The notes under the pieces: model-generated
What the model saw: the letters and a program-made list of their open reading frames with translations, nothing else
Databases searched by the model: none
Told to the model about the DNA's origin: nothing
NCBI GenBank assembly: GCA_002803225.1
Contig: NXFV01000341.1
Coordinates: 1 to 64,000, forward strand
DNA: 64,000 bases
DNA from: Gamarada debralockiae
Lineage: Eukaryota > Ascomycota > Leotiomycetes > Helotiales > Hyphodiscaceae
Direction of reading: 5' to 3'
Part shown: piece after piece, positions 26,294 to 59,549 of the stretch
Layout: every line of letters begins with the position of its first letter
Numbering within the stretch: position 1 is the stretch's first letter
Made by a program: the position numbers and the translations under genes

Positions 26294-26867
26294 CTAATTC
26301 TTGTCTGAACGCTCATCAACGACGAAGGGATAGTCGTATCCCGGAGGCTCTGGGACAGCACGTTCGTCAACGACGAAAGGGTAATCGTATCCGGGAGGCT
26401 CTGGAACAGCACGCTCGTCAACAACGAAAGGATAATCGTATCCGGGAGGCTCTGGGACAGCACGCTCGTCAACAACAAAAGGATAATCATATCCTGGCGG
26501 TTCGGGAACGGCACGCTCATCAACGACGAAAGGATAATCGTATCCCGGAGGCTCTGGGACGGCACGTTCATCAACGACAAAAGGATAATCGTATCCCGGA
26601 GGCTCTGGGACAGCACGCTCGTCAACGACAAAGGGGTAGTCATATCCTGGCGGCTCAGGAACAGCGCGTTCATCGACCACGAAAGGGTAATCGTATCCCG
26701 GGGGCTCGGGGACTGCACGCTTTGCAGCGGCACCTGGACACTTTTGTGAGTTTCATGAGTTATAGATTGTGTTGCAAGCCAAGTCACACACCCTTGATAC
26801 GTGCGGTGGGAACCGACGCGCCCATTTGGGCCAGGGCCAGTAAAGCCAAGGTAGTCGAGAGCTTCAT
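26294..26867 (-). CDS. Secreted repeat-peptide precursor, candidate RiPP (dikaritin-type) precursor
   Basis: Two exons, 26867-26790 and 26740-26294, with a 49-bp phase-0 intron give 174 aa. The N-terminus MKLSTTLALLALAQMGASVPTA is a signal peptide. CPGAAAKR follows, and its KR is a classical Kex2 site. Residues 35-170 are eight exact copies of AVPEPPGYDYPFVVDER, and the protein ends SDKN. Each unit ends in ER, a less usual processing site. Known fungal precursors of ustiloxin and phomopsin type share the plan of signal peptide plus repeated short cores with basic cleavage sites. Each unit offers two Tyr and four Pro for modification. UstYa-like proteins and a prolyl hydroxylase lie within 6 kb. 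The product is unknown. A plain Kex2-processed repeat peptide without modification is the alternative. Confidence 0.8.
26309..26716 (-). repeat. Eight 51-bp coding repeats
   Basis: Eight contiguous 51-bp units encode an identical 17-residue peptide. DNA copies differ only at synonymous positions: the Pro codons vary among CCA, CCC, CCG and CCT, Ala among GCA, GCC and GCT, and Tyr between TAC and TAT. The peptide is therefore kept constant while the DNA drifts. Confidence 0.97.
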
Positions 26868-27934
26868 GATTAGGTGTATCTGGATCACAAATGTTGATTT
26901 TGATTTTGGGAAAGAGTTTGGAGGGAGGTGAAGAGGGGTTCTTATTGATGAGCTGCTCTTTCTCTGTGCAACGAGCTCTACCTCGGCTCCTTCGCCGACC
27001 AGCAAGGCATGGCCATGGCGACATGGTTCATCAGAGCTCGACTCGGCCAGTGAAGGGTTTCACCGCCCATGAAATTCCTTGTTGCCTATCTTGGTCGCAT
27101 CCATCACTCGCCCGTCCGTCCAGCAGCTTAACTGTCATGGCTATAATTTGCTGAGCATCATTTTTTAGTAGCTCGTATCCTCTTTATGCGTTGATCAACA
27201 CATGCTGTGACATTTTCATGCGGGTCAAGCTTCAAGTGGAAGGTGTTTACTCGGCCAGTGCCGCATACCAAAACTTTGTTAGCAAGATGTCTCCGTAATA
27301 GGATGACGAGGATATAACCGCGAGTGCGTGACTGGAGGTCCGGCGAGTGCCAAAGTATCAGCTGCAAGTATAAATATTACTCAGCGGTTACTATTCCTCA
27401 TCCTTGCAGAGCACTAGGCGCAAGGATTCCTAGCACATGCTGTGGATTGCAACTTCCCGATTGCCTCCCGCCTCCGTGCTTCATGCATATCAACAAGATT
27501 TGCATTGCCGAGTATGAGATGAGATAGTCCTAGAAGATGAGAAAAGATGCAGCCTCAAGCTCCTAATAGGATTACATTGATGGTCGCCATTTACTAGTTG
27601 ATTCCGGATCATGCCTTTAAACAAGGTTTGTGCATATCAGAATTTGGTACCCCGCAGGAGAAATCAAGCCCTGGAGCCTCAAGTAGGCTACTGTAGAGCT
27701 CGTCATCCCACCGTTTGTCGGCTTGATTTGGATGCAGGTAAGCTTATGGCCGTTGCCTTAGCGTACTCGTATTATGCAGCACAGGCATTATCCCCAGAAA
27801 GTTTATCACTGGGTTCTGAAATACCGAAAATACGACAGGCTACAGTTATTTAATTTGCCATTAAAAAATATAGCATTATTCAGGCGTTTGATAGATTCGC
27901 TTTACCTTAATGCCGGGGCGAGTTCCCTGGTTCT
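26868..27934. other. Intergenic between precursor and UstYa-like gene
   Basis: It contains the precursor promoter, including TCGCCGA at 26992-26998, a 7-mer also found twice in the divergent promoter at 29620-29660. I see no gene in the remaining sequence. Confidence 0.45.
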
Positions 27935-28992
27935 TCAAACGTGCCTTCCAAGTCTTTCCTCCCACGCGGCCCTAGATTCTGCAAAATTCAAATCGCCGTG
28001 ATGGTCTTTCACCCATTCAACAATATCATCCCAGTTGCGACACTTCCTCTCTACAAGGAAATTTGGGTTTGGTCGTGGATTGGGGAAACGCTCTTCGGAG
28101 ACGTACTCAAACGTCACGAGTTCGGTATCAGCGCGACACATGATGATTTGTCGCAAGCTGTCGAGGCAGTGACCCACGTGGATTAATTGCATTTCCGGAG
28201 CCTCCCGAAGGTTATAGTAATCCCGATGGATGTAGATTCTGATCTTGTCTCTGTATAATTTCAGTAAGTTGTGCGTGGTTAAAGGCAAACCGCGTTCACT
28301 TACAGGCAATGAAGCTGATGAAACACGTCCAACCTGTATAATATGCCCAAGTTAGCCATGTATTCTGATAAATATCTTTCTGCTTCAATCGACGCACATA
28401 GCGATATACCGATTTGTTCCGTCTGTGAGTTTAACAGAAGTCTTTCCAATGGCCTCCAAATCTTCGATTTGAACAGCAATTTCAGTCACTAAAGGGTTAG
28501 CAAGCGCTAGAATCCTTAACGAATTGTTCATGCCTAGACTTACAATTGTGAAATTGAAGCCAGGCTGCAGTTTGAGCTGGATTTGGATTTCCTTTGAATA
28601 CATTTTCATCCCAGAGGCTATTGTTCATGAGCACTCTCCCGTAAAGGCTTGCTTCATTCGCAGGAGCTGGTAGTTTCAGTAACCAATTCATGATAATCTG
28701 AAAGTAACTGAAACTCACAAGGCACCTCGTAATCGTGATTGATTCTAGAGGCCGATTTGACTGGTAGACTGAGCAGTAGCCCCAGTGTCCATGCGAGATT
28801 AAACAGCAAAAAAAGTAGATGGGGCAGGTAACTTCGAAAGGCTCTGGCACCTTTCGAGAGCTTTTCCCTCGGCGGTCGTTCTCTTTCCAGTGGTTCTAGG
28901 AGTCCGTCGACGCTCTCTTTTTCGTTGCTACATGTTTCCGTCAAGTCATTGGGTTTGTCAGATATCGACTGATATTTGAACGACTCAACCAT
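27935..28992 (-). CDS. UstYa-family (DUF3328) oxidase-like protein
   Basis: Five exons, 28992-28719, 28666-28544, 28488-28398, 28333-28304 and 28250-27935, give 277 aa. A single membrane helix (about 55-77, LPHLLFLLFNLAWTLGLLLSLPV) precedes a lumenal domain with NNSLWDENVFKGNPNP and AAWLQFHNLTEI. The two signature motifs are HQLHC (168-172) and HVGHC (197-201), followed by LDSLRQIIMCRADTEL. The first motif is assembled over a 30-nt exon. UstYa proteins catalyse oxidative cyclisation and related steps in ustiloxin, phomopsin and cyclochlorotine biosynthesis. The gene lies about 1 kb upstream of the repeat-peptide gene on the same strand and head to head with the next gene, which supports a role on that peptide. 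The upstream TTG-initiated extension was rejected in favour of ATG at 28992. Confidence 0.9.
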
Positions 28993-29886
28993 AATTGCTA
29001 TCTGAGTAGAATCAAGATCGTTGGGGGAATTTGAAGCAAAATTTAACAACGGGTGAAATACTCAAGGCAGCAAGAAAACGTTGAGTAACTGAATAAGTGG
29101 ATACTCTTCCGACATCGTTCAAAGTGGAAGCTGAAAACAATTTCGAATTACGGACCTGACATTTTTCTGTAATCTGACCATATTTTCTCCAGCGATCTTC
29201 CTTTCTGCAAGAAACAGGTCATTATTTACAGCAAGGGTATTGCAACTACCGGGGTGGAACTAGGGCTAGGTTTGCCCGGCATTCGGCCACCCAAAACAGC
29301 AGCTCCTAGTCTACGGGCGGCTCGTGGCAGCCATATTTCCATATCAGGCAGTTGAAACACTCGGGAAAAATTTAAAGAACGGCAAGTGTTAATCAAGATG
29401 ATGCAGGTAGAAGCGATGAGTCAGCATCTCACTGCGCAAAGCATATGCAAGTGTTTGCGCTACGAAATCCTAGCATCTAAGCTTATATTCATGTCAGATC
29501 GCTCATCGGCTGAAACTGGGGGTGATCGTTGGCGGTGAGAGATATATCGGCTTGCACACAGATCTCGTATGAAGGCTCGTAGATCTCAGTTCTCGAGTTT
29601 GGTGATGATGATCAGTGATCGCCGAGCAAGTCTCAAGTTACAAAGCACAGGGTTCGGCGACTGCTCCAACATCGGTCCTTCTTTATATTGCCGGAAGGCA
29701 AAACGTCAAGCCGTGTTCTAGTAGCAGAAACGGGTGATCCAGGGTTCCATTCGAGTCGAGATCCTACTCCGCATTGAGCGGTTTATGACCACATTACGCA
29801 TTCAACAATTGAAAAGCGGAAAGTCTATTCAGCTCTCCAATATTCTCTGAGCAGTTGTCTTCAGTATCGAACTTGCTTCTCATACA
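28993..29886. promoter_or_regulatory. Divergent promoter of the two HxxHC-protein genes
   Basis: This 894-bp region is shared by the minus-strand UstYa-like gene and the plus-strand HxxHC gene, allowing co-regulation. It contains TCGCCGA at 29620-29626 and its complement TCGGCGA at 29654-29660, spaced by 27 bp, the same 7-mer as in the precursor promoter. Whether it binds a regulator is unknown. Confidence 0.5.
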
Positions 29887-30729
29887 ATGGCACTTGATTC
29901 AAGGCGAAGGTGAGTTGGGTCGAAAAGTTTCAAACGTCTGACTGTCGACTGACTTAGTAGTACCCAAAGCATAGACGAGGAAGCCAGCGATGTAGATGCA
30001 GTCTCTGGGTCCAAGATAGACAATGAATATCCACTCATCCCTCGAGCTCTGGAACAAATCACATCGGAAGACCATTCCTACGGCACAGAAAACAAATTCA
30101 AGACTTATACGAGGAATCATCGATACAGACCAATATTGATTGCTCTGAAATTGGTGATTATTGGTCTCGCAGGCTGGGGAGTCTTCAGTTTCTGGAAAGG
30201 CCCCACGACACCTGTACTCCCCGAATCGAGTCACAACCAACCAATAATGGCGAATGAGCACATCTGTGATTGTGGAGCTTCAACACAAGAAGCAATCTCC
30301 CTTGGCTGTGAATTCGTAGCTATGGCAGCAGCTTGGCTACCACCAGCTTGCATCGATCACGATCTGAGTGAAGAATTCGACAAAGCTGGGCCGGGGATCG
30401 ACGGAAGTTGGACATATTGGACCGACAACAACCACAATCATGAGATTAGCAAAAATGAAATAGCACTTCTTGCTGATACGGGCGAACTGTTCTATGGGAC
30501 TTGGGAATGGCATGTAAAGCATTGTACTTTTCAATGGCGGCTAGATTATCGGCGGAGATGGTTGAATACCATCGTGGAGCCCAGATATGATCATGAGAGT
30601 CATATCACTCATTGCGAGATGATCATGTTTGCTGATCGGACGAAGTCAACTGGGAGTAATGTGAAGCTGAATAGCAGCAGTCATCAGCCAGATCATGGTC
30701 ACATTCATCAGAGAGACCAACGATTTTGA
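29887..30729 (+). CDS. Divergent UstYa-like type II membrane protein with two HxxHC motifs
   Basis: Two exons, 29887-29909 (23 nt) and 29958-30729, give 264 aa. The cytosolic N-terminus is acidic, with a membrane helix at about 66-87 (ILIALKLVIIGLAGWGVFSF). The lumenal part has a GCEF...AAAWLPPACIDHDLSEEFD segment, then HVKHC (193-197) and HITHC (223-227). The C-terminus is His-rich (HQPDHGHIHQRD). Paired HxxHC motifs behind a single helix mirror UstYa proteins, but the surrounding sequence is not the usual DUF3328, so common enzymology is inference. Position, head to head with the canonical UstYa gene, supports membership of the same pathway. Confidence 0.75.
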
Positions 30730-31354
30730 CTGGGTTTTGAAATTCTAGTTCTTGGTAAAGACATGAACTAGGAGTTTTCGTCGGTCTTGAGGCTTTTGTG
30801 TACACGATAAATTACTTGTGCAGTTAGTTGAGAAGTGCCAAAAACTAGATATGACGAAGGATACAAAGTCCCCGAGCTCTGCAAGTTGCTCCCCGGTCCT
30901 TCCTTCAAATTCAACAGGATTCCTAAACCATGACGTCCATGAACTCAACTTTCAACTAGAGGTTGAAAGTGCTTCAAGGTTCATCAGTCACCGAACCAAG
31001 ATGTGATTGGCCACGTCGTGCTCAAGGAGCTGGAGTCTAACCCATACTCCAAATGTGGTAAATGCACGCCCCGAGTATCGCTTACCAGGGGGTTCTTGAA
31101 TGCTGCAAAAGATCTGCAGATGAGCTTACGGACAGGGTTGAAATGTTAGTCTCAAACGGTAATCTAAATCAACGGCAGCGTAGCCTATGCACCACAATGC
31201 ACCTTTGCAGGGGGCAGAAAAGGAAGGCGAATTTTCGACTAGCATGGCGTCCTGCCTAGGTAGGTAAGAATTTTGCCTTGCGCGGATACGGTCGATGTTT
31301 GCATATTCCTGGCACTCCTCCGCACTGAGTCTCTCATTCACTTTACAGACCAAT
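30730..31354. other. Intergenic; promoter of the hydroxylase gene
   Basis: No coding signal is supportable; short frames on both strands are not conserved-looking. The TCGCCGA 7-mer was not found here. Confidence 0.4.
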
Positions 31355-32208
31355 ATGGCAGCCTCTCTCAAATCTTCGATTTTTGGTCGCAATCGTGCTT
31401 CAACACTTTTGTCGAATGTGCTTATTGTAGGACTGCTTTCAATCGCCGTTCAATATGTACTTCTTTATTTGCGGCCTTCGTCCAGAAACTTAGACAGTGT
31501 GAGCGGTGCTATTTGCGAGAACCAGCCATATGTGACTCGAATAGTGTCCTACGACCCGCTTATAATCCATCTGGAAAACTTCATCACACCCGCAGAACGC
31601 AGTCATTTCGCCAATATTTCGTAAGATGAACCTCAATTTTGCTTACTCGTGACAACGAACTCACAATTCTCAGAGCTCCGCTCCTGAAGCGCTCCACAGT
31701 AGCGAATCGTGAAGGTGGCCCACCAATCCACAAACCATCCCGGACGAGCTCTACTGCATTCCTACCACGAAACGACAGCATCGTAGCATGTCTTCAAGAA
31801 CGAGCAGCCGACCTCCAAGGTTTTCTATCTCCTAAAAAAGTCGAGATGCTTCAAGTAGTGCAGTACACCCAGAATCAAGAGTATAAAGCTCACTACGACT
31901 GGGGCGTTGCGAGTGAAGTTAAGGCCGAGCGCGAAAGTACCATCTTTGGATTCCTTGAAGGAGATTGCGAGAAATGCGGGACTCAATTTCCTAAGATAGC
32001 GATTGATTGGACGAAGGAGTCTCAGAGATGGTGCGAATTTGTGGAGTGTGATATGGAGGATGCTCTTACTTTCAAAGCTGTACCTGGCAGTGCTGTGTTT
32101 TGGAAGAATCTACTTCCAGATGGAAGAGGTGACGTGAGGACTCTTCATGCGGGGCTACCGATTTCGAGTGGTATGAAACTGGGGTTGAATATTTGGACGA
32201 TTGTTTGA
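31355..32208 (+). CDS. Prolyl 4-hydroxylase-like 2-oxoglutarate/Fe(II) oxygenase
   Basis: Two exons, 31355-31620 and 31674-32208, give 266 aa. An N-terminal membrane helix (about 21-37) is followed by a P4H catalytic domain. The iron ligands are in HYD (His162, Asp164) and TLHAG (His247), and Lys257 in GMKLGLNIW is placed to bind 2-oxoglutarate. Between them is FGFLEGDCEKCGTQFPKI, matching the loop preceding the core in P4H proteins. The helix points the domain to the ER/Golgi lumen, where the Pro-rich repeat precursor would pass. Hydroxylation of that peptide is inference; collagen-like or other protein substrates are the alternative. All catalytic residues are present. Confidence 0.85.
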
Positions 32209-33029
32209 TATTTGGCAGTAAACGCCGAGGATATTCCAGGGCCAGGTGTAGTTTAAAGTTTTTGAGAGGCCATGGTGGCTCCAGAGTGTCTAAGTCACAT
32301 GCGAATTGGCTTCAGATTGCAGAGATGGATGACTTGCCAAATATACTTTTTCACCAACCTTAAAATAAGATGGTCTTAGAAGGCTTAATATGACTTTGGT
32401 TACCGTAGTAATTGCTCTATAAGATCGGGTATTGCATGTTAAATTCTATGGTTTTGGTGTTGCAGGACCTAATCTTATTGTAGGAGTAAGACTCTATACG
32501 TATCATATAATATGACGTTTTTAATGATTTTCCATGTTCCTACCTTCACCTCCGTCTTATCATACGTGATATCGACGAATTGAGCGCCCATAGAGGCGTA
32601 GCAGCTGAGAATTCATTATTCAATGCTACTTCCGTCATCAGGAGAGTCGTGGTTTAGGAGATGCTTGCGGGAAAGGGGTGATGAACGCGTCCGACGCGTC
32701 TGCCGCAGGTTAAGGATGGATATAAAGATCGAGGGATTTCCCTACAAATCAAAGGTCAGCCAGAAGCTCTTTTGCTTATCAAACCTACTGTATCGTCTTC
32801 TAATTCTCCTCTTCGTTGCAGAACTCTCGCATCCTTCATAATGGCTCCCCCACCCGGCACCCGGCCCCTCCTTCCAGCCCCTGGACCCTACTCAACTTAC
32901 TATTGCTTCCTCTCTTCAACAACCCCTCTCTACTCGGACTATACGCTCTGGGCCACTTCCAAAGTCTCCATAACAGCGCCGGGCCGCGCAACAGCCTGCC
33001 TGCGGATGCCTACTGACTAGTGGGTTAGA
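32209..33029. other. Intergenic, nothing recognised
   Basis: This is the 3' flank of the hydroxylase gene. A Pro-rich frame at about 32840-33010 is short and unconvincing. Confidence 0.4.
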
Positions 33030-33480
33030 CGAAAGTCGATCATGAATATGTTTGCATTGTACCGCCGCCAGTTTCTTTCTGATGAGGATACTGATATTGA
33101 TGATGGTGAGGATGGCCCGCGAAGAAGGATCCAGTATACTCGAGAACACAAGCTTGCTGCGATTGATTACTTTGGGAATACATGGTATGGGACTATGAAT
33201 GGCCAGCTCAAACGGATCACCAAATATCGGGTCTGCCAGAACCTCAAGATTACTCCAATTATGCTCAAGAATTAGTTCAGCAACTGGGACAAGATTCTTA
33301 ATCAAAAGAAAGGGACTCCCCGCAGTCGGGATCGCCACTAAGCAGGTGCAGAGCCTGAGCTAGAGAAGAGATTGAATGAGGAGTTTGAGGAAGCTCGCGC
33401 GCTGGGGAAACAGATACTCTTTATGAGATGATATCATAACTACAGGCGACGCCAGGCTTGGGTGTCGGGTTAGGGTCTAA
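33030..33480 (+). pseudogene. Pogo-like transposase N-terminal relic
   Basis: The plus strand reads RRRIQYTREHKLAAIDYF, QLKRITKYRVCQNLKITPIMLKN, NWDKILNQKKGTPRSRDRH and EPELEKRLNEEFEEARALGKQIL, the N-terminal DNA-binding region of fungal pogo/Tc5-HTH transposases. In-frame stops are TAG at 33273-33275, where family members plausibly have Trp, and TAA at 33339-33341. The catalytic part is missing. Confidence 0.75.
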
Positions 33481-34028
33481 ATTATTAGCAAGAGTCTTGC
33501 CCCATAAGGCAGGGGGAAAAAAATTTAATTATTTATGAAGGAAGATAAGTAAAGTGAAGTAAAGTGATTTGCCCCACGGGCTAAGCTTATTGATATAATA
33601 TAATACTAATAATGTAACATTACATTATATTTAGCAAGTGAGTCTTTGCCCCACGGGACAAAGAAGATGGTTAACCCACTATATAATAATTAATTTTTAT
33701 TATATATAAGTGAAATTTTTGTCCTATAGAGCAAAGGCTAACCTATATATAGCATTAGTAAGTAAAATCTTCTTTACATTATAAGGCAAGAACTTCTACT
33801 AAAATATCAGTAGGAGGAAATGGTAATTCTTCTTCTTCATCTACGCGGCGTTTATGTGTGACAGGGTTGGGGTTACAAAACATCACTGAACGATTGAAGC
33901 TGTATATTTTTAACACGTGACTCAGATCCTGAAGCTAATCTAACCGCCCGCGCATCTTCTTCCTCTTGAATTGCTACGTCCTTTCCCTTGTGTTGATAGG
34001 TCTAGAAGGTACGGTGATATTTAGGGGC
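33481..34028. other. AT-rich decayed repeat
   Basis: Strongly AT-biased sequence contains repeated GCCCCA[C/T][G/A]GG[C/G] phrases at about 33500, 33570 and 33645. It is probably degraded transposon sequence; no gene is seen. Confidence 0.5.
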
Positions 34029-34098
34029 AGGCAGCAGGCTATCGGTACAGGCAACAAGATATCGGGATAGGCAACCAGCTATCGGGACAGGCAACAAG
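34029..34098. repeat. 20-bp tandem repeat, 3.5 copies
   Basis: Units AGGCAGCAGGCTATCGGTAC, AGGCAACAAGATATCGGGAT and AGGCAACCAGCTATCGGGAC are followed by a half unit. It is possibly part of an LTR. Confidence 0.8.
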
Positions 34099-34320
34099 AA
34101 TAAGCTGTATCAAGTTGTAGATATAACAGAAGGGTTGAACGATACAGGAAGGACAGAGATTTTGAATTGAAGCTTACGAAGCCTATTTTGGACTAGCGCT
34201 ATATGTATTTCAGTAGTAGGGTTCCCATAACAACACCTTGTAGGCCCGTTTCCAGTCGCAAAAAGAATACCTGTACGCAATCCTCACTACGAGCATACTA
34301 CGAGGGCTATTGCCGCCGGC

Positions 34321-53498: not shown

Positions 53499-56400
53499 TC
53501 ACTCTGCCGTCTTACTTTTCTTAGTCCGCAACTTCATCAACACGTAAACCAGTATGTATCCACTGAACACAAATAGCGCCACGATCGCCGCATCCCTCCA
53601 GCCATAGTAATAGTCCTTCAAATTAATCGTAGCCAAGTAATCGCTCCCAACTCTGTATTCACAAACTCTACAACCTTCAGTCGCATCTGGATTGACCAGA
53701 TTGGCGCGCGAGCCCATGCCGGAAAGGTAATTGGTGAGGTAGGACTGGCATGTTTCGTTTGCGGGAGGATTGAAGATCGCGAATTCCTTCTCGGCACAGT
53801 TTACGGGCGCGTCGAAGGAAGTGAAGGTAAGGAGGGATCCCATGAGGTAGTTAAATGGGTTAAGGTAGTAAATCCAGTATCTATGAGAAATGAGGTTAGT
53901 TTTGATTCCAAAGATTGAAGGAGTGGGAGAAGGACTTACCTCCAGAAAGGCTGGATTTGAGAGTACGGCACCAAAACACCACAGAAAGAAACCAAGACTC
54001 CGAGAACAAGCGGGTTAGCAAGGGAAGCAAACACAGCGTTTGGTGCATAAGCAGCGATGAATTGTCCAATGCTCGTATAAACGAACTCATACATGAGCAT
54101 GACGAAGAACACTGCACCGGCTTTATTCGAGTCGGATGGGAAGCCGACGGTATAGTACCAGCAAACGAAGTACTGAACGGCACAGACGCAGAGGTAAGGA
54201 AGTTCGGAGACAATAAGACCGGTAACAAAGGCGACCCAAGAATACATCTTCGATTTCTTCTCTCTTGCCTCGTAGATATCGCGACGTTCAATGAAGAGCG
54301 GTTGCAGCTGTGCGAGGACACCAGGAGCGACGAAGATGAAGTTGAATACAGTGAAGAGGCGGAGCTGGAGATCACCCACTGTGTTGCCAATCTTCCAGAA
54401 AGAGAAACCGTTGAAGAGAGCCGATCCAATATGCAAGGCGAACTTGTTATTCACGTAATCTGTGTTTCGCCAGAGAGAGACATTCATGCGCTGAGTAACG
54501 AGCTTTGTCTGCTCCCAAAGTGGCATCGCGAATTCGAATCCATCATCAGAAGTTCCGGGTTCCTTTGCGGCGGCGTCATTGATGATGCGGTCAAGTTCTT
54601 CGACAGTGTACTTGTGTTCGGGAGAGTCGAGCCAGACTTGATTCCAGTCTCTACCTTGGGAGAGAGATCCAGAAACTACGTCGATCATGTGTTCAGCGGG
54701 ATTGGCATCTTTGGGGCAAGGAGCGTCGTAGCGGGCGAAATAATCCTTGACTGTTGCTCCATTATCGCCGATATCGCCAAAGTAAACGGTCTTGCCTCCT
54801 TTGGCCAGGAGGAGAAGGCTGTCGAATTGAGCGAATAGTTGGGCACTGGGTTGATGGATAGTGACTAGAACAGCCTGACCAACATCTGCCAACTTCCGAA
54901 GGAATCTGACAATGTTGAAGGCAGCTTGTCCATCAAGACCGGAAGTGGGTTCGTCCAAAAAGATGAGGATGCTTGGTTTGGAGACAAGCTCGACTCCAAT
55001 GGTCAATCTCTTCCGTTGCTCGACGGAAAGACCAGCGCCGGCGGTTCCAACGAGGGTGTTTTCAATGTCGTGCATCTCGAGCAGATCAATGATAGTGTCG
55101 ACATACTTGAGTTTGTCTTCTCTTGGGATGGTGCGAGATTGTCGGAGGAGTGCAGAAAATTCCAGTGCTTCTCGAACAGTTGTAAGAGGCTCGTGAATAT
55201 CAAGTTGTTCGCAGTACCCGGCTGATCGTTGGAAGGAGACAGAGAGGGGGCGTCCATCAACGAGAATTGAGCCTTTGATCGTGCCATCTGTCTTTCTTTG
55301 GGCCAAAACATCAAGCAAACTGTACAAATCTCGAAGTCAGTCTTTGTTATATAGAGCACGCGATCCTATGGAATCGAAAACAAAATGCCCCGAAAATTGC
55401 TTACGTGGTTTTTCCTGCTCCAGACGATCCCATTAGTGCTCCTAACATTCCAGGCTTGACCCATCCCTGAACGTTGTCGAGAAGGACTCGGTCACCAGAT
55501 GGTGTCTTGACGGTGTATGAGAGATTCTTCCAAGTGAAGACCGAGGTGTTGCGGATCAATTGGTCATCAACCTTTGTCTCGTCCGACGAAGAGCTGCTTG
55601 AATTGACAGCAGTTTTGTCCTTCACGACTTGGGATTCCTCATCGTTGGCCAAGTTATGCACGTTCTTCTTTGCCTTTTCGCGAGGAATGAGGAGGAAGCC
55701 ACTCTTGCCACCCTGGGCTTTCCAATTGCTTGTGGAGATGATAGTTAGAGCGACGAACAAAATCCAGAACGCCCAAAGAATGCCAAAGTTTCTCCAAATG
55801 TTTCCAGAAGAGTACGAAAGCGAGCCCAGATATTGTTCACCTGTGACACTGGTAGCTCCGGGAAGCGCTCCTCCTACACCGGTACAAGCTTGGTATGCTG
55901 CATCCGCATAGCCCGGACCATTGGGCACGAGGTTTGTCGCTACACAAGGGATGATAGCGCCCTTGAACTCGTTTGCTAAAATCGCAGAGAAGCCATATGC
56001 CAGTGGGTCAATCCAGTAAATCCTGTTGACATAATTAGTGCTACGATTCCAATATTGAGATCGACAAATTACTCACCAGACAAACCAAGGATGCATACGC
56101 GGCTTCGGAATCATGTAACCAGTATACATGATCAAAGCAGCGACCATAAAGCCAGACACCTTAGACGCACCATCGAAAGTCGAGAACCCAGCACCGATGC
56201 TACGGAACAAGGCCGTCATACACATAGTGGTTACAAAGATCAGGGCCCAGAACGTGAAGAAGGCGCCGGCATCTTGTCTGAGGCCCACCATGAAATAAAG
56301 TACGATCGAGAAATGTGAGACCTGGATCAGCAGAACCGGAATGTCCGCAGCGATTTGAGCTATGCAGAACGCGGCAGGATGGTACAGTGCGAACGATTTG

Positions 56401-58053
56401 TGTTTGGCGAGAACGGGACGGCCGGAGAAGGAGTCGGTCACCTCGCTCATAGCTAGAAGACTGTTGAATAGAAGGGCCAGGAAGAGAGCGCCGGATTTGA
56501 CGAAGAGACCTGCGGAGTTGTTGGGAGCATTGTAGAAGAGGGATCCTGCGATCAAAGCTTGAGCGAGGGTTGAAAGTTGTTTGATGAGGAATGTCGCTTT
56601 GTCTCCCCAGAGGATTTGGTACTGTCGAGTGACGCATGCCTTCACTTGAGTGATGAAGCTGACCGTAAGGGGTGATTTCTTTGGCAGGTTCTTCGCTTTT
56701 TCATACTGGACACCTTCTCGGAAGTCTTCGGTCAGTTGTTTCGCGAGGTCTGTGGTGGGATAGTTGTACTCGGCTTCCATCTGAGAATGATCGGTCATTA
56801 ATAGCTCAATTTATTTAAAAGATTCAGAAAGCACTCACCTCGGCTTTGATACTGCTCTTCTCGTAATGAGCTCGAATATCATCTGCAGTCCTGGGAAACT
56901 TGTTCTCGAATCCATCTTGAATCATTCGCTCAGTTGGAACTGTGACTCCGGTCAAGAAGTCTCCGATATTAGCTCCATCACGGCAGACAAACCCAAGTTC
57001 CTCCATGAAAGGTCGCGCTTGCTTCATCGGGCCGTAGTAGATCTCTTTGCCCTCGTCGATAACCAAGACCTTGTCGAAGAGATTGTAGATACCATTGCCC
57101 GCCTGGTACAGTGTGACGATGGATGAAAGTCCGAAGATGTCAGTCATCGCTCGAATGGCTTTCGTATACTCAAGCGCAGTGCTTGCATCAAGACCGCGAG
57201 TACTGTTGTCCCAACAAAACACACTGCCTCTGGTGGCCAGTGTCTCGATAATACTTACACGCTTTCGCTCACCACCTGACACGCCGCGAACGAACTCGTT
57301 GCCCACTTTGGTGTCATGAGTGTGGGAAATGCCCATGGATCTGAGAAGGAAGTCCCGGTTCTCCTTCTGGTACTCGACAGGCGTTTGGATGTTCGATGGG
57401 AGGTGAAAGGGGATTTTCATTCGCGTTGCGAAGTCGATTGTCTGTCCGACAGTGAGAGTTGGGAAAAACAACTCGTCTTCGGTGTTCATCACAATCTGGC
57501 CTCGATATTGGGCGGCCTCCTTGTGGTCTAGCGTTCCGAATTTGACGTCTCCATCGACCTCAGCATATCCCGTTCTCCTATTTGCCAACATCTTCAAAAG
57601 CGTTGTACAGCCGGCTCCTGGACGTCCAAGGACCAACAACATCTCTCCAGGTTTCACGCAACCATGACTGTTCTCGATGATTGTCTTCAACGGCGCACCA
57701 TGTCTCGCCTCCTTGATGTTCCTTGGGATGTTGAACTGCGATCCCACATTCTCGTTGATAGCTGCATCAGCACCAACGCCCTTCACTGTGAGATTCTTCC
57801 ACGTAACACCTAATTTGCGGCCTTTCACATTGTCCGCCTCTTCCTGATCATGGACTGCCCTGATGTCTGACATCATCTTCCAATCCACCGCTATTGGCTC
57901 CCGCTTCTCGTCTTCATCTGAATCATCGTATGGGCGACTTCGTTTTCGTTCCAGAAAGGCTGATGAATTGGACATGATCCGACTGATGACATTTCCTTGG
58001 CCATGAGGCTCATGGACTATTGAGGCAAAAGCCTCTGGCTCCGTGGTACCCAT
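53499..58053 (-). CDS. PDR-type ABC multidrug transporter
   Basis: Five exons, 58053-56839, 56780-56077, 56022-55405, 55319-53940 and 53880-53499, give 1432 aa. The layout is (NBD-TMD)2. NBD1 has the degenerate Walker [10 protein letters not shown] (143-151), signature [10 protein letters not shown] (from 258) and [14 protein letters not shown]2 has the canonical GSSGAGKTT (about 838-846, split by an intron) with [15 protein letters not shown] and [12 protein letters not shown]. The asymmetry is normal for fungal PDR pumps, where one ATP site is degenerate. Two sets of membrane helices and a Cys-containing lumenal loop before the last helix are visible. The likely role is efflux of drugs, fungicides or plant defence compounds at the plasma membrane. 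The resemblance to BcatrB/atrB-type pumps is an impression only. Confidence 0.93.
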
Positions 58054-59549
58054 CCTGGACCCGTGAATTACTCAGTCGAGATAAATAATGCTCTAGGTTA
58101 TCAAATACAGAGTTGACCTGAACGATCAATACAACCTCTGATATTAACTGAAATGAATAAAAAGGTCAAGTCACACTCGAAGACGAAACCACCAAAAATT
58201 AAAGAAGTAGATCAAGAGAGTCTTTAAACAATCAAATACGCGGCTCCCATAGAGTAAATAAAGAACATGCCAAACGGGCTGGTTCCACATCCCACTCCTT
58301 TTTTTGTCCGTAGCCATTAGCGCATCTCTTTCCTTCGCCATTTCGGCCTCTACGAAGCTCCCCAGCTCCCGGCCAAGACTTGGGAAGTTCCAGCTCCGAT
58401 TATCAGCTGCAAAATCTCCATAATGGGAAACTAATAAGCAGACATAAGAAGAGAGTGGGCTCTTGAGTATTCGTCATGCAATTAAAGTTTCATATCTGCT
58501 TGGGTTCGTGTTTTCCTGTCAAAAACGAAGAGACGGGACCGAATGATACGGGTCGGCCTTCAGCAGAGGCCGAAGCCAGGCTGGCCAATAGAAATGGAGC
58601 CAAACCAATAGGAATCTAGACATCTGGTGGATCGTGGGTGATTAGACATTGAGCCCCATGTCTGAGAAGAGATTTGGTTGGAGCAGTAGGGTGTTATTGT
58701 TTTGTCGGAGGTTAAGGGAGCTCCGCTGACTAACAATCAACGCACATTTTCTTTGAAGAAAAGTCCGTGGCCCACTTTTCTCTGGGAATTCAGCTTTTGA
58801 TTGGCTGAGCTTATTTCAGAGATTTTCTTCGAAGACCCAAACATACCCCATGAGTTCTACAACGTATCTGATAACTTTACCAATCTGGTGCCTTGGGTAT
58901 CGTCGTTGACGAAAGGTTTATGCGGCTGTGACACATATCTACACCCTGTATGATCGTGGCTTCATCCAGAAGTCCCTTTGTGGTTGCCTTGCCATGACAA
59001 ATGTAAGTTCTCGTCGAGATGCTTGGATGCTCGGAGTTTTTTTGCTCAATAATGGGGCAGATCGAAGACGTGCCTTTTTAGTCTACATCTCCTGCAGAAT
59101 GAGCCTTGAGCTTCTACTCAACTGGATGGCACTCGACAGGGAAAAATCTCAGAAGTACTTCATCACGTGTAATTTTTATCACATGACATCAGTCACGTGG
59201 GTTATACCTTTGGAGGGCAACCTTCGCTGACCACATCACCACAGAGCACATAATAACTCATCGTCTCTATCTGTATTCTCTAAAGCTAAAGTGCATATGC
59301 ATAGGCATCTCCGTCTAAGTAGTCCCGCAACGAACGCCTAGACAAGCGACGCTCAGGACACAAGTAACTCCCAACGCCCATGCTCCACCGGCGTCATTTT
59401 GGAAAGGTAACGCAAACGTAACGCCAAAGCCCATTGCTTGTAATGCTGTCGAGTTCTTTCCTATACTCCATGCTTCCAAATCCAGAGTTGCGTTCCATAC
59501 AAACATTTCAGTACCTCACATATCGACGTTCAAGCATCTCCCGATATGC
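58054..59549. other. Long intergenic region upstream of the ABC transporter
   Basis: 1.5 kb without recognisable genes. Such length is common upstream of regulated efflux pumps. A CGTGTAATTTTTATCACATGACATCAGTCACGTG stretch at about 59166-59199 has several CACGTG/CACATG-like boxes. Confidence 0.4.

Follow-up and report, generated by a model that had tools for sequence, protein, structure and literature searches.

A four-gene block that reads as a minimal UstYa-type (dikaritin-like) pathway for a ribosomally synthesized and post-translationally modified peptide (RiPP) was identified in a 64,000-nucleotide stretch of the fungus Gamarada debralockiae (contig NXFV01000341.1, positions 1 to 64,000; hereafter, the window). 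The window is part of a contig of 91,743 bases (designated here as C131) within a 54.3 Mb assembly of 1112 contigs. The block occupies positions 26294-32208 (5.9 kb) and comprises, in order, a gene for a repeat-containing precursor and a UstYa gene (UstYa1), both on the minus strand, followed by genes for a second membrane protein with two HxxHC motifs (Y2) and a membrane-anchored prolyl 4-hydroxylase (P4H), both on the plus strand. The predicted genes lend good support to its assignment to the UstYa-type RiPP pathways, because they include a conserved repeat precursor, a UstYa protein, a member of a family (Y2) that adjoins UstYa genes and a P4H whose homologues have apparently been kept with Y2. 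The block represents a real, coherent and probably functional peptide pathway, and a minimal dikaritin-like route is the explanation that we consider best and, on balance, likely. All four genes were located where a first-pass annotation of this DNA had placed them, and their models were rebuilt with exon coordinates for each; these splice models were drawn by eye and from homology, and all seven introns carry GT..AG ends.

The repeat precursor and its junctions

The precursor gene (26294..26867, minus strand) was modelled as two exons (26867-26792 and 26733-26294) separated by a 58-base intron, encoding a deduced protein of 171 amino acids. This protein consists of MKLSTTLALLALAQMGASVPTARIKGAAAKR, eight identical copies of AVPEPPGYDYPFVVDER and an SDKN tail, with AAAKR directly preceding the repeats, and its start resembles a signal peptide as judged by N-terminal hydropathy and inspection rather than by SignalP. 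The units are encoded on the minus strand by eight 51-base repeats (26309..26716), each specifying a single PPG, a YDYPF segment and a single VDER end (eight PPG and eight VDER overall), while Tandem Repeats Finder reported 8.1 copies with a period of 51 at 26309-26721. Splice model and repeat analysis agree in this respect with the secreted precursor of eight identical units that had previously been proposed.

Comparison of the eight copies revealed differences at 16 of the 51 nucleotide sites, distributed as 0, 0 and 16 over the first, second and third codon positions (Fisher P=2.4e-12). At least 21 changes were inferred among the copies, all of them synonymous, for which the chance is ~1e-13 at a synonymous probability of 0.24. 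Such third-position-only variation is indicative of strong purifying selection on the repeat peptide, and rules out a chance repeat or a DNA-level satellite.

A search of ~5.8 billion proteins, with scoring confined to the 7,996 candidates that had the most words in common with the precursor, yielded a single homologue with an E value of 1 or less (P0001, from sequence archives; E=8.4e-5). This protein exhibits GAVAKR where the precursor has GAAAKR, followed by an identical 17-residue repeat and an identical SDKN tail, its upstream part being out of the precursor's frame (by eye). The only other match within the G. debralockiae genome (contig C1076, E=0.022) was dropped as a candidate paralogue, as it is surrounded by zinc-finger-like and other open reading frames (ORFs) without a repeat precursor.

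The sole dibasic pair in the precursor is the leader KR, and all eight repeats end in V-D-E-R, which corrects the expectation of dibasic junctions. In dikaritin precursors, the cores are reported to be separated by KR, RR or KK (PMC9769878), and the survey of Kex2-processed repeat proteins (KEPs) by Umemura (2020) was based on at least three repeats of at least eight amino acids between KR, KK, RK or RR (PMC7329392). The precursor departs from both descriptions, and since it carries VDER ends instead of dibasic sites, precursors of this kind are overlooked by the survey rule. According to a review, the Kex2 motif has Arg at P1 and Lys at P2, where Glu ranks within the five leading substitutes, and P4 is occupied by Leu or by other aliphatic residues, Val being one of them (PMC8528282). 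With Arg at P1, Glu at P2 and Val at P4, VDER fits this extended motif, suggesting that cleavage may occur there, and a single kexin P-domain match was found in the genome. On contig C377, an ER-rich ORF with NKIER/SPEPNKIER units and what looks by eye like a signal peptide (L043:5511-5816, minus strand) is located between two Y2-family genes. This ORF loosely backs cleavage at non-dibasic sites, and no more than loosely because its P4 residue is not aliphatic.

The precursor might instead remain uncut, as a repetitive protein of the cell surface or wall that receives its hydroxyproline from P4H and whose tyrosines would be cross-linked into a matrix by the HxxHC enzymes, with no small peptide being set free. 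We regard this as unlikely: repeat ends of VDER rather than KR, RR or KK would suit such a protein, as would a P4H that models like enzymes acting on proline-rich proteins and collagen, but the precursor possesses a leader KR site and its VDER ends fit the extended Kex2 motif. Less probable still is that the repeats encode a linear peptide signal, for instance a pheromone, and that the HxxHC genes act on some other substrate. Among KEPs whose annotation is mating factor or pheromone, DUF3328 neighbours are almost always missing (PMC7329392), and the core is without the Cys/Trp pattern seen in the ascomycete alpha pheromones quoted in PMC6339444, even if pheromones do occur among Kex2-type repeat precursors and AVPEP contains X-Pro pairs such as STE13 removes (PMC6339444). 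Given a core unlike those of pheromones and a UstYa gene as its immediate neighbour, a pheromone precursor was rejected as the principal reading in favour of a modified, UstYa-type peptide.

UstYa1 and the Y2 family

UstYa1 (27935..28992, minus strand) was modelled with five exons encoding 273 amino acids, including one hydrophobic helix and the motifs HQLHC and HVGHC. Its PF11807 score of 144 bits (cut-off 25; E=8e-42) bears out its earlier designation as a canonical UstYa. Across the genome, 67 PF11807 matches were counted exon by exon on 27 contigs, 66 of them over the cut-off, so UstYa1 is not rare in itself. Sequence comparison with solved structures yielded no convincing relative of UstYa1 (best E=0.058) and none of Y2, and a search of NCBIfam returned nothing near cut-off for UstYa1, Y2 or P4H.

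Y2 (29887..30729, plus strand; exons 29887-29909 and 29958-30729) is a deduced protein of 264 amino acids, in which HVKHC and HITHC follow a predicted membrane helix (residues 59-81 of the modelled protein), an arrangement expected of a UstYa-like protein. Both motifs of this second membrane protein had been reported by the first-pass annotation, but Y2 lies outside the Pfam UstYa model and matches no Pfam family. In an alignment of 19 Y2-family sequences, both HxxHC motifs, a CG pair, two further Cys residues and one Trp were shown to be invariant. Three of these 19 members match PF11807 at E up to 1, the best being a paralogue on C639 whose alignment spans both motifs (E=9e-4; 19.6 bits, below the 25-bit cut-off), and Y2 is likely to be remotely akin to UstYa.

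Scoring of 594 candidates gave eleven Y2 homologues with an E value of 1e-5 or lower, with 32-89% identity and 48-98% query coverage, the sources including Pseudogymnoascus destructans (60%), Viridothelium virens and Lophiotrema nucula. None of 32 pattern matches on viral contigs encodes a Y2 relative. Within G. debralockiae, the family is represented by 16 matches on eight contigs, an adjacent pair on C804 probably being one gene. Seven of these 16 matches, on four of the eight contigs, lie within 5 kb of a PF11807 match (three of seven contigs when the query contig is left out). Neighbourhoods of this kind account for 0.59% of the genome, which gives the observed proximity a binomial P of 8e-8 with the query contig counted; the Y2 family thus repeatedly adjoins UstYa in this genome. 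On C993 (L039), three Y2-family genes are interleaved with two UstYa genes in ~7 kb, where a repeat precursor was not recognised. The PF11807 search gave no match on C377, which holds two Y2-family genes, and Y2 may therefore be able to work without UstYa. Formation of the first ustiloxin intermediate needs ustQ, ustYa and ustYb, each being essential (PMC6514808). Y2 may be either a catalyst or a partner subunit of UstYa1. The divergent UstYa1 and Y2 genes share an intergenic spacer of 894 bases (28993..29886), a possible bidirectional promoter.

Stretches of 8-20 kb from all eight Y2 contigs (C131, i.e. the window, C497, C993, C589, C639, C804, C377 and C238) were scanned for repeat ORFs. On three of the eight (C131, C497 and C377), a repeat ORF whose start was taken by eye for a signal peptide is at most 10 kb away from Y2 genes. 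The one on C497 (L038:4003-4503) contains five TNIYPSVGFKGDPDEKVKR units with KR sites, is neighboured by several UstYa matches as well as two Y2 genes, and also exhibits Tyr-Pro in its repeat core. Among three UstYa contigs without Y2 that were scanned at 10-20 kb (C304, C581 and C1048), a repeat precursor was observed on C581 (L049:5690-6042), where SPIESDFYDKDEKR repeat units are encoded in two exons (by eye) between UstYa genes. No repeat precursor was present in nine short pieces away from PF11807 (L013, L030-L032, L034-L037 and L044), nor a further one in the rest of the window; most other UstYa contigs were outside the scan or covered only by pieces of ~3.5 kb. Several flagged ORFs were dropped by eye as being of low complexity or without a signal peptide, namely those of L039 (the charged tail of an ankyrin-like ORF), L047 (38 and 78 amino acids) and L048 (259 and 82 amino acids) and a plus-strand ORF of L043, as were overlapping frames of the precursors that were kept.

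The prolyl 4-hydroxylase and the proposed pathway

The P4H gene (31355..32208, plus strand; exons 31355-31620 and 31674-32208) encodes a predicted membrane-anchored protein of 266 amino acids with an HYD...H...K site. It matches PF13640 (29.9 bits, cut-off 27), and in a 12-sequence alignment H162, D164 and H247 are invariant and K257 is nearly so, in line with the membrane-anchored P4H-like oxygenase with an intact site that had been reported at this position. Its relatives of known structure by sequence are Chlamydomonas reinhardtii P4H-1 (E=2e-14) and human P4HA2. An AlphaFold2 model of the catalytic exon (predicted local distance difference test score, pLDDT, of 93.5) gave as top fold matches C. 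reinhardtii P4H-1 (2jig, E=3e-13; 3gze, with (Ser-Pro)5), human C-P4H-II and a viral collagen P4H. The 2-oxoglutarate-Fe(II) fold with HxD...H and Lys was thus recovered, and the protein models as a peptidyl prolyl 4-hydroxylase, activity on its substrate being predicted. Fold and HxD...H...K site are shared with C. reinhardtii P4H-1 and human C-P4H-II, whereas the present enzyme is a membrane-anchored fungal form beside a RiPP precursor, its putative substrate. Collagen-type P4Hs prefer X-Pro-Gly, Pro-Pro-Gly being the classic target.

A protein search with P4H produced 76 matches at E up to 1e-10 among 1,183 candidates. In L. nucula, a P4H (P0014, 62% identity) and a Y2 homologue (P0006) are each listed on a contig of 715,948 bases, and the next P4H of this species (P0069, 40%) on a contig of different size. 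Similarly, archive proteins P0004 (Y2) and P0018 (P4H) each derive from a contig of 2,320 bases, the Y2-P4H span in G. debralockiae being ~2.3 kb. Overall, two of 11 Y2 matches share a contig size with a P4H match, several Y2 contigs being too short for both genes. From these equal contig sizes, Y2 and P4H homologues seem to be paired in other fungi. Conversely, of the nine P4H-type matches in the G. debralockiae genome, just one has UstYa in its vicinity (P=0.05 at 5 kb and 0.09 at 10 kb), so that P4H-UstYa proximity in this genome is not clearly above chance. This last result would favour a pathway of precursor, UstYa1 and Y2 beside which P4H is merely an unrelated neighbour. Such a bystander role is nevertheless improbable in our view, considering the Y2 and P4H homologues on equal-sized contigs in two other sources, the fact that in L. 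nucula the closer P4H and not the 40% one matches the size of the Y2 contig, and the presence of one PPG in every repeat.

In the proposed UstYa-type pathway, the signal peptide would carry the precursor into the secretory pathway, where the membrane-anchored P4H would hydroxylate proline; within the single Pro-Pro-Gly of each unit, the second Pro is the likeliest target. UstYa1 and Y2, both membrane-anchored and with two HxxHC motifs each, would oxidise or cross-link the tyrosines of YDYPF. In ustiloxin and phomopsin, tyrosine is linked to the residue two positions further on, and the Y-x-Y spacing in YDYPF equals this distance. Host kexin would then cut after the leader KR and each V-D-E-R, and a carboxypeptidase would trim the Arg. 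One precursor could in this way supply as many as eight peptides of ~16 residues, or trimmed versions of them, that carry hydroxyproline and modified tyrosine. Membrane topology and order of steps are inferred, as are the modification sites and the ring. The [M+H]+ of AVPEPPGYDYPFVVDE was computed as 1793.827, shifting to 1791.811 upon loss of 2H, to 1809.822 upon addition of O and to 1807.806 with both.

Several observations weigh against this pathway, which is predicted from genes. The repeats are without dibasic ends, cleavage at VDER being presumed, and P0001 carries one repeat only, perhaps owing to assembly collapse. Five of the eight Y2 contigs are without a repeat precursor in the stretches scanned, and profile comparison between Y2 and UstYa is weak (P=0.025 and 0.072). 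The pairing of Y2 and P4H elsewhere is deduced from contig sizes, and the low frequency of P4H-type genes near UstYa in this genome, given above, points in the same direction.

A broader proposal is put forward tentatively, as one rather more apt to fail than to hold. Y2 might represent a second, uncatalogued family of HxxHC oxidases that serves peptide pathways in fungi and is a distant relation of UstYa; together with P4H it would define a subclass of tyrosine-modified, hydroxyproline-bearing peptides with acidic-Arg (V-x-E-R) junctions that are hence hidden from genome mining. Were the block itself to work as proposed, proline hydroxylation by a 2-oxoglutarate enzyme would join the chemistry of UstYa-type fungal peptides, an unannotated HxxHC family of several fungi would gain a name and a function, and rules based on dibasic junctions would undercount these pathways.

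Class membership and genomic surroundings

The first-pass annotation had called the block both dikaritin-type and undescribed. UstYa/DUF3328 is the class-defining enzyme in a later definition of dikaritins (PMC12048977), and UstYa1 with its two HxxHC motifs conforms to it. A precursor with repeated cores and a signal peptide (by hydropathy and inspection), a further dikaritin trait, is likewise present. Tyrosinase, methyltransferase, transporter or peptidase are items of the dikaritin list of Ding et al., as quoted in PMC12048977. Tyrosinase yielded 24 matches on 14 contigs genome-wide but none on C131, and in none of 14 places (one per contig) was it within 10 kb of a UstYa match; on C951, tyrosinase and UstYa matches are ~20 kb apart. 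S41 peptidase gave four matches in the genome, likewise none on C131, and methyltransferase was absent among 20 Pfam queries representing a selection of window ORFs, no genome-wide search for it having been made. The earlier remark that the block lacks these three enzymes is upheld to this extent. The UstYa-type part of the label stands, whereas its dibasic spacers and tyrosinase are wanting; because of these two departures, and because the product is a predicted one, strict dikaritin membership is not claimed, only a likeness to a minimal dikaritin pathway.

Regarding novelty, among the papers listed from open-licence full-text literature (few subscription papers, no preprints; judged mostly by titles and starts of abstracts), none was seen to connect P4H with UstYa/DUF3328 or to describe the Y2 family, and the texts of PMC7329392 and PMC12048977 contain no word starting with hydroxylase, oxygenase or dioxygenase. 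These findings and the single precursor homologue sustain the term undescribed for the combination, but not for the overall kind: 1758 of 7878 KEPs have DUF3328 neighbours (PMC7329392), so this kind is common and novelty resides in its parts.

Among known systems, the asperipin-2a cluster (aprA, aprY, aprT and aprR) is similarly small, with a precursor, a UstYa homologue and no tyrosinase among its four genes (PMC6514808). Its core, FYYTGY, is Tyr-rich (PMC6514808), in contrast to PPGYDYPF with VDER repeat ends, and its reductase and transporter are replaced here by P4H and an HxxHC protein of a second family. Ustiloxin and phomopsin share a signal-peptide-like leader, repeated cores and UstYa/UstYb-type proteins with the present block, PhomA also having eight repeats (PMC6514808), but differ in possessing tyrosinase and further tailoring genes and, for PhomA, KR motifs (PMC6514808). 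Compared with KEPs, the precursor exhibits a signal peptide, tandem repeats and one KR, and is set apart by V-D-E-R between its repeats.

Short introns, a HET domain and the UstYa family suggest that the gene content of the window is fungal. A gene for an FAD-dependent oxidoreductase (DAO, PF01266; 22894-24441, minus strand) is located 1.9 kb from the precursor gene. On the other side, positions 33021-34100 are AT-richer (GC 0.41) and hold a 20-base tandem repeat and a short ORF that looks by eye like the decayed beginning of a transposase (without a Pfam match), and may represent the right border of the block. Further along, a HET-domain gene fragment (PF06985; 38093-38533, minus strand) was observed, followed, ~21 kb off the block, by an ABC transporter gene (ABC_tran and ABC2_membrane; 53499-58071, minus strand), which we take to be of the two-half pleiotropic drug resistance (PDR) kind.

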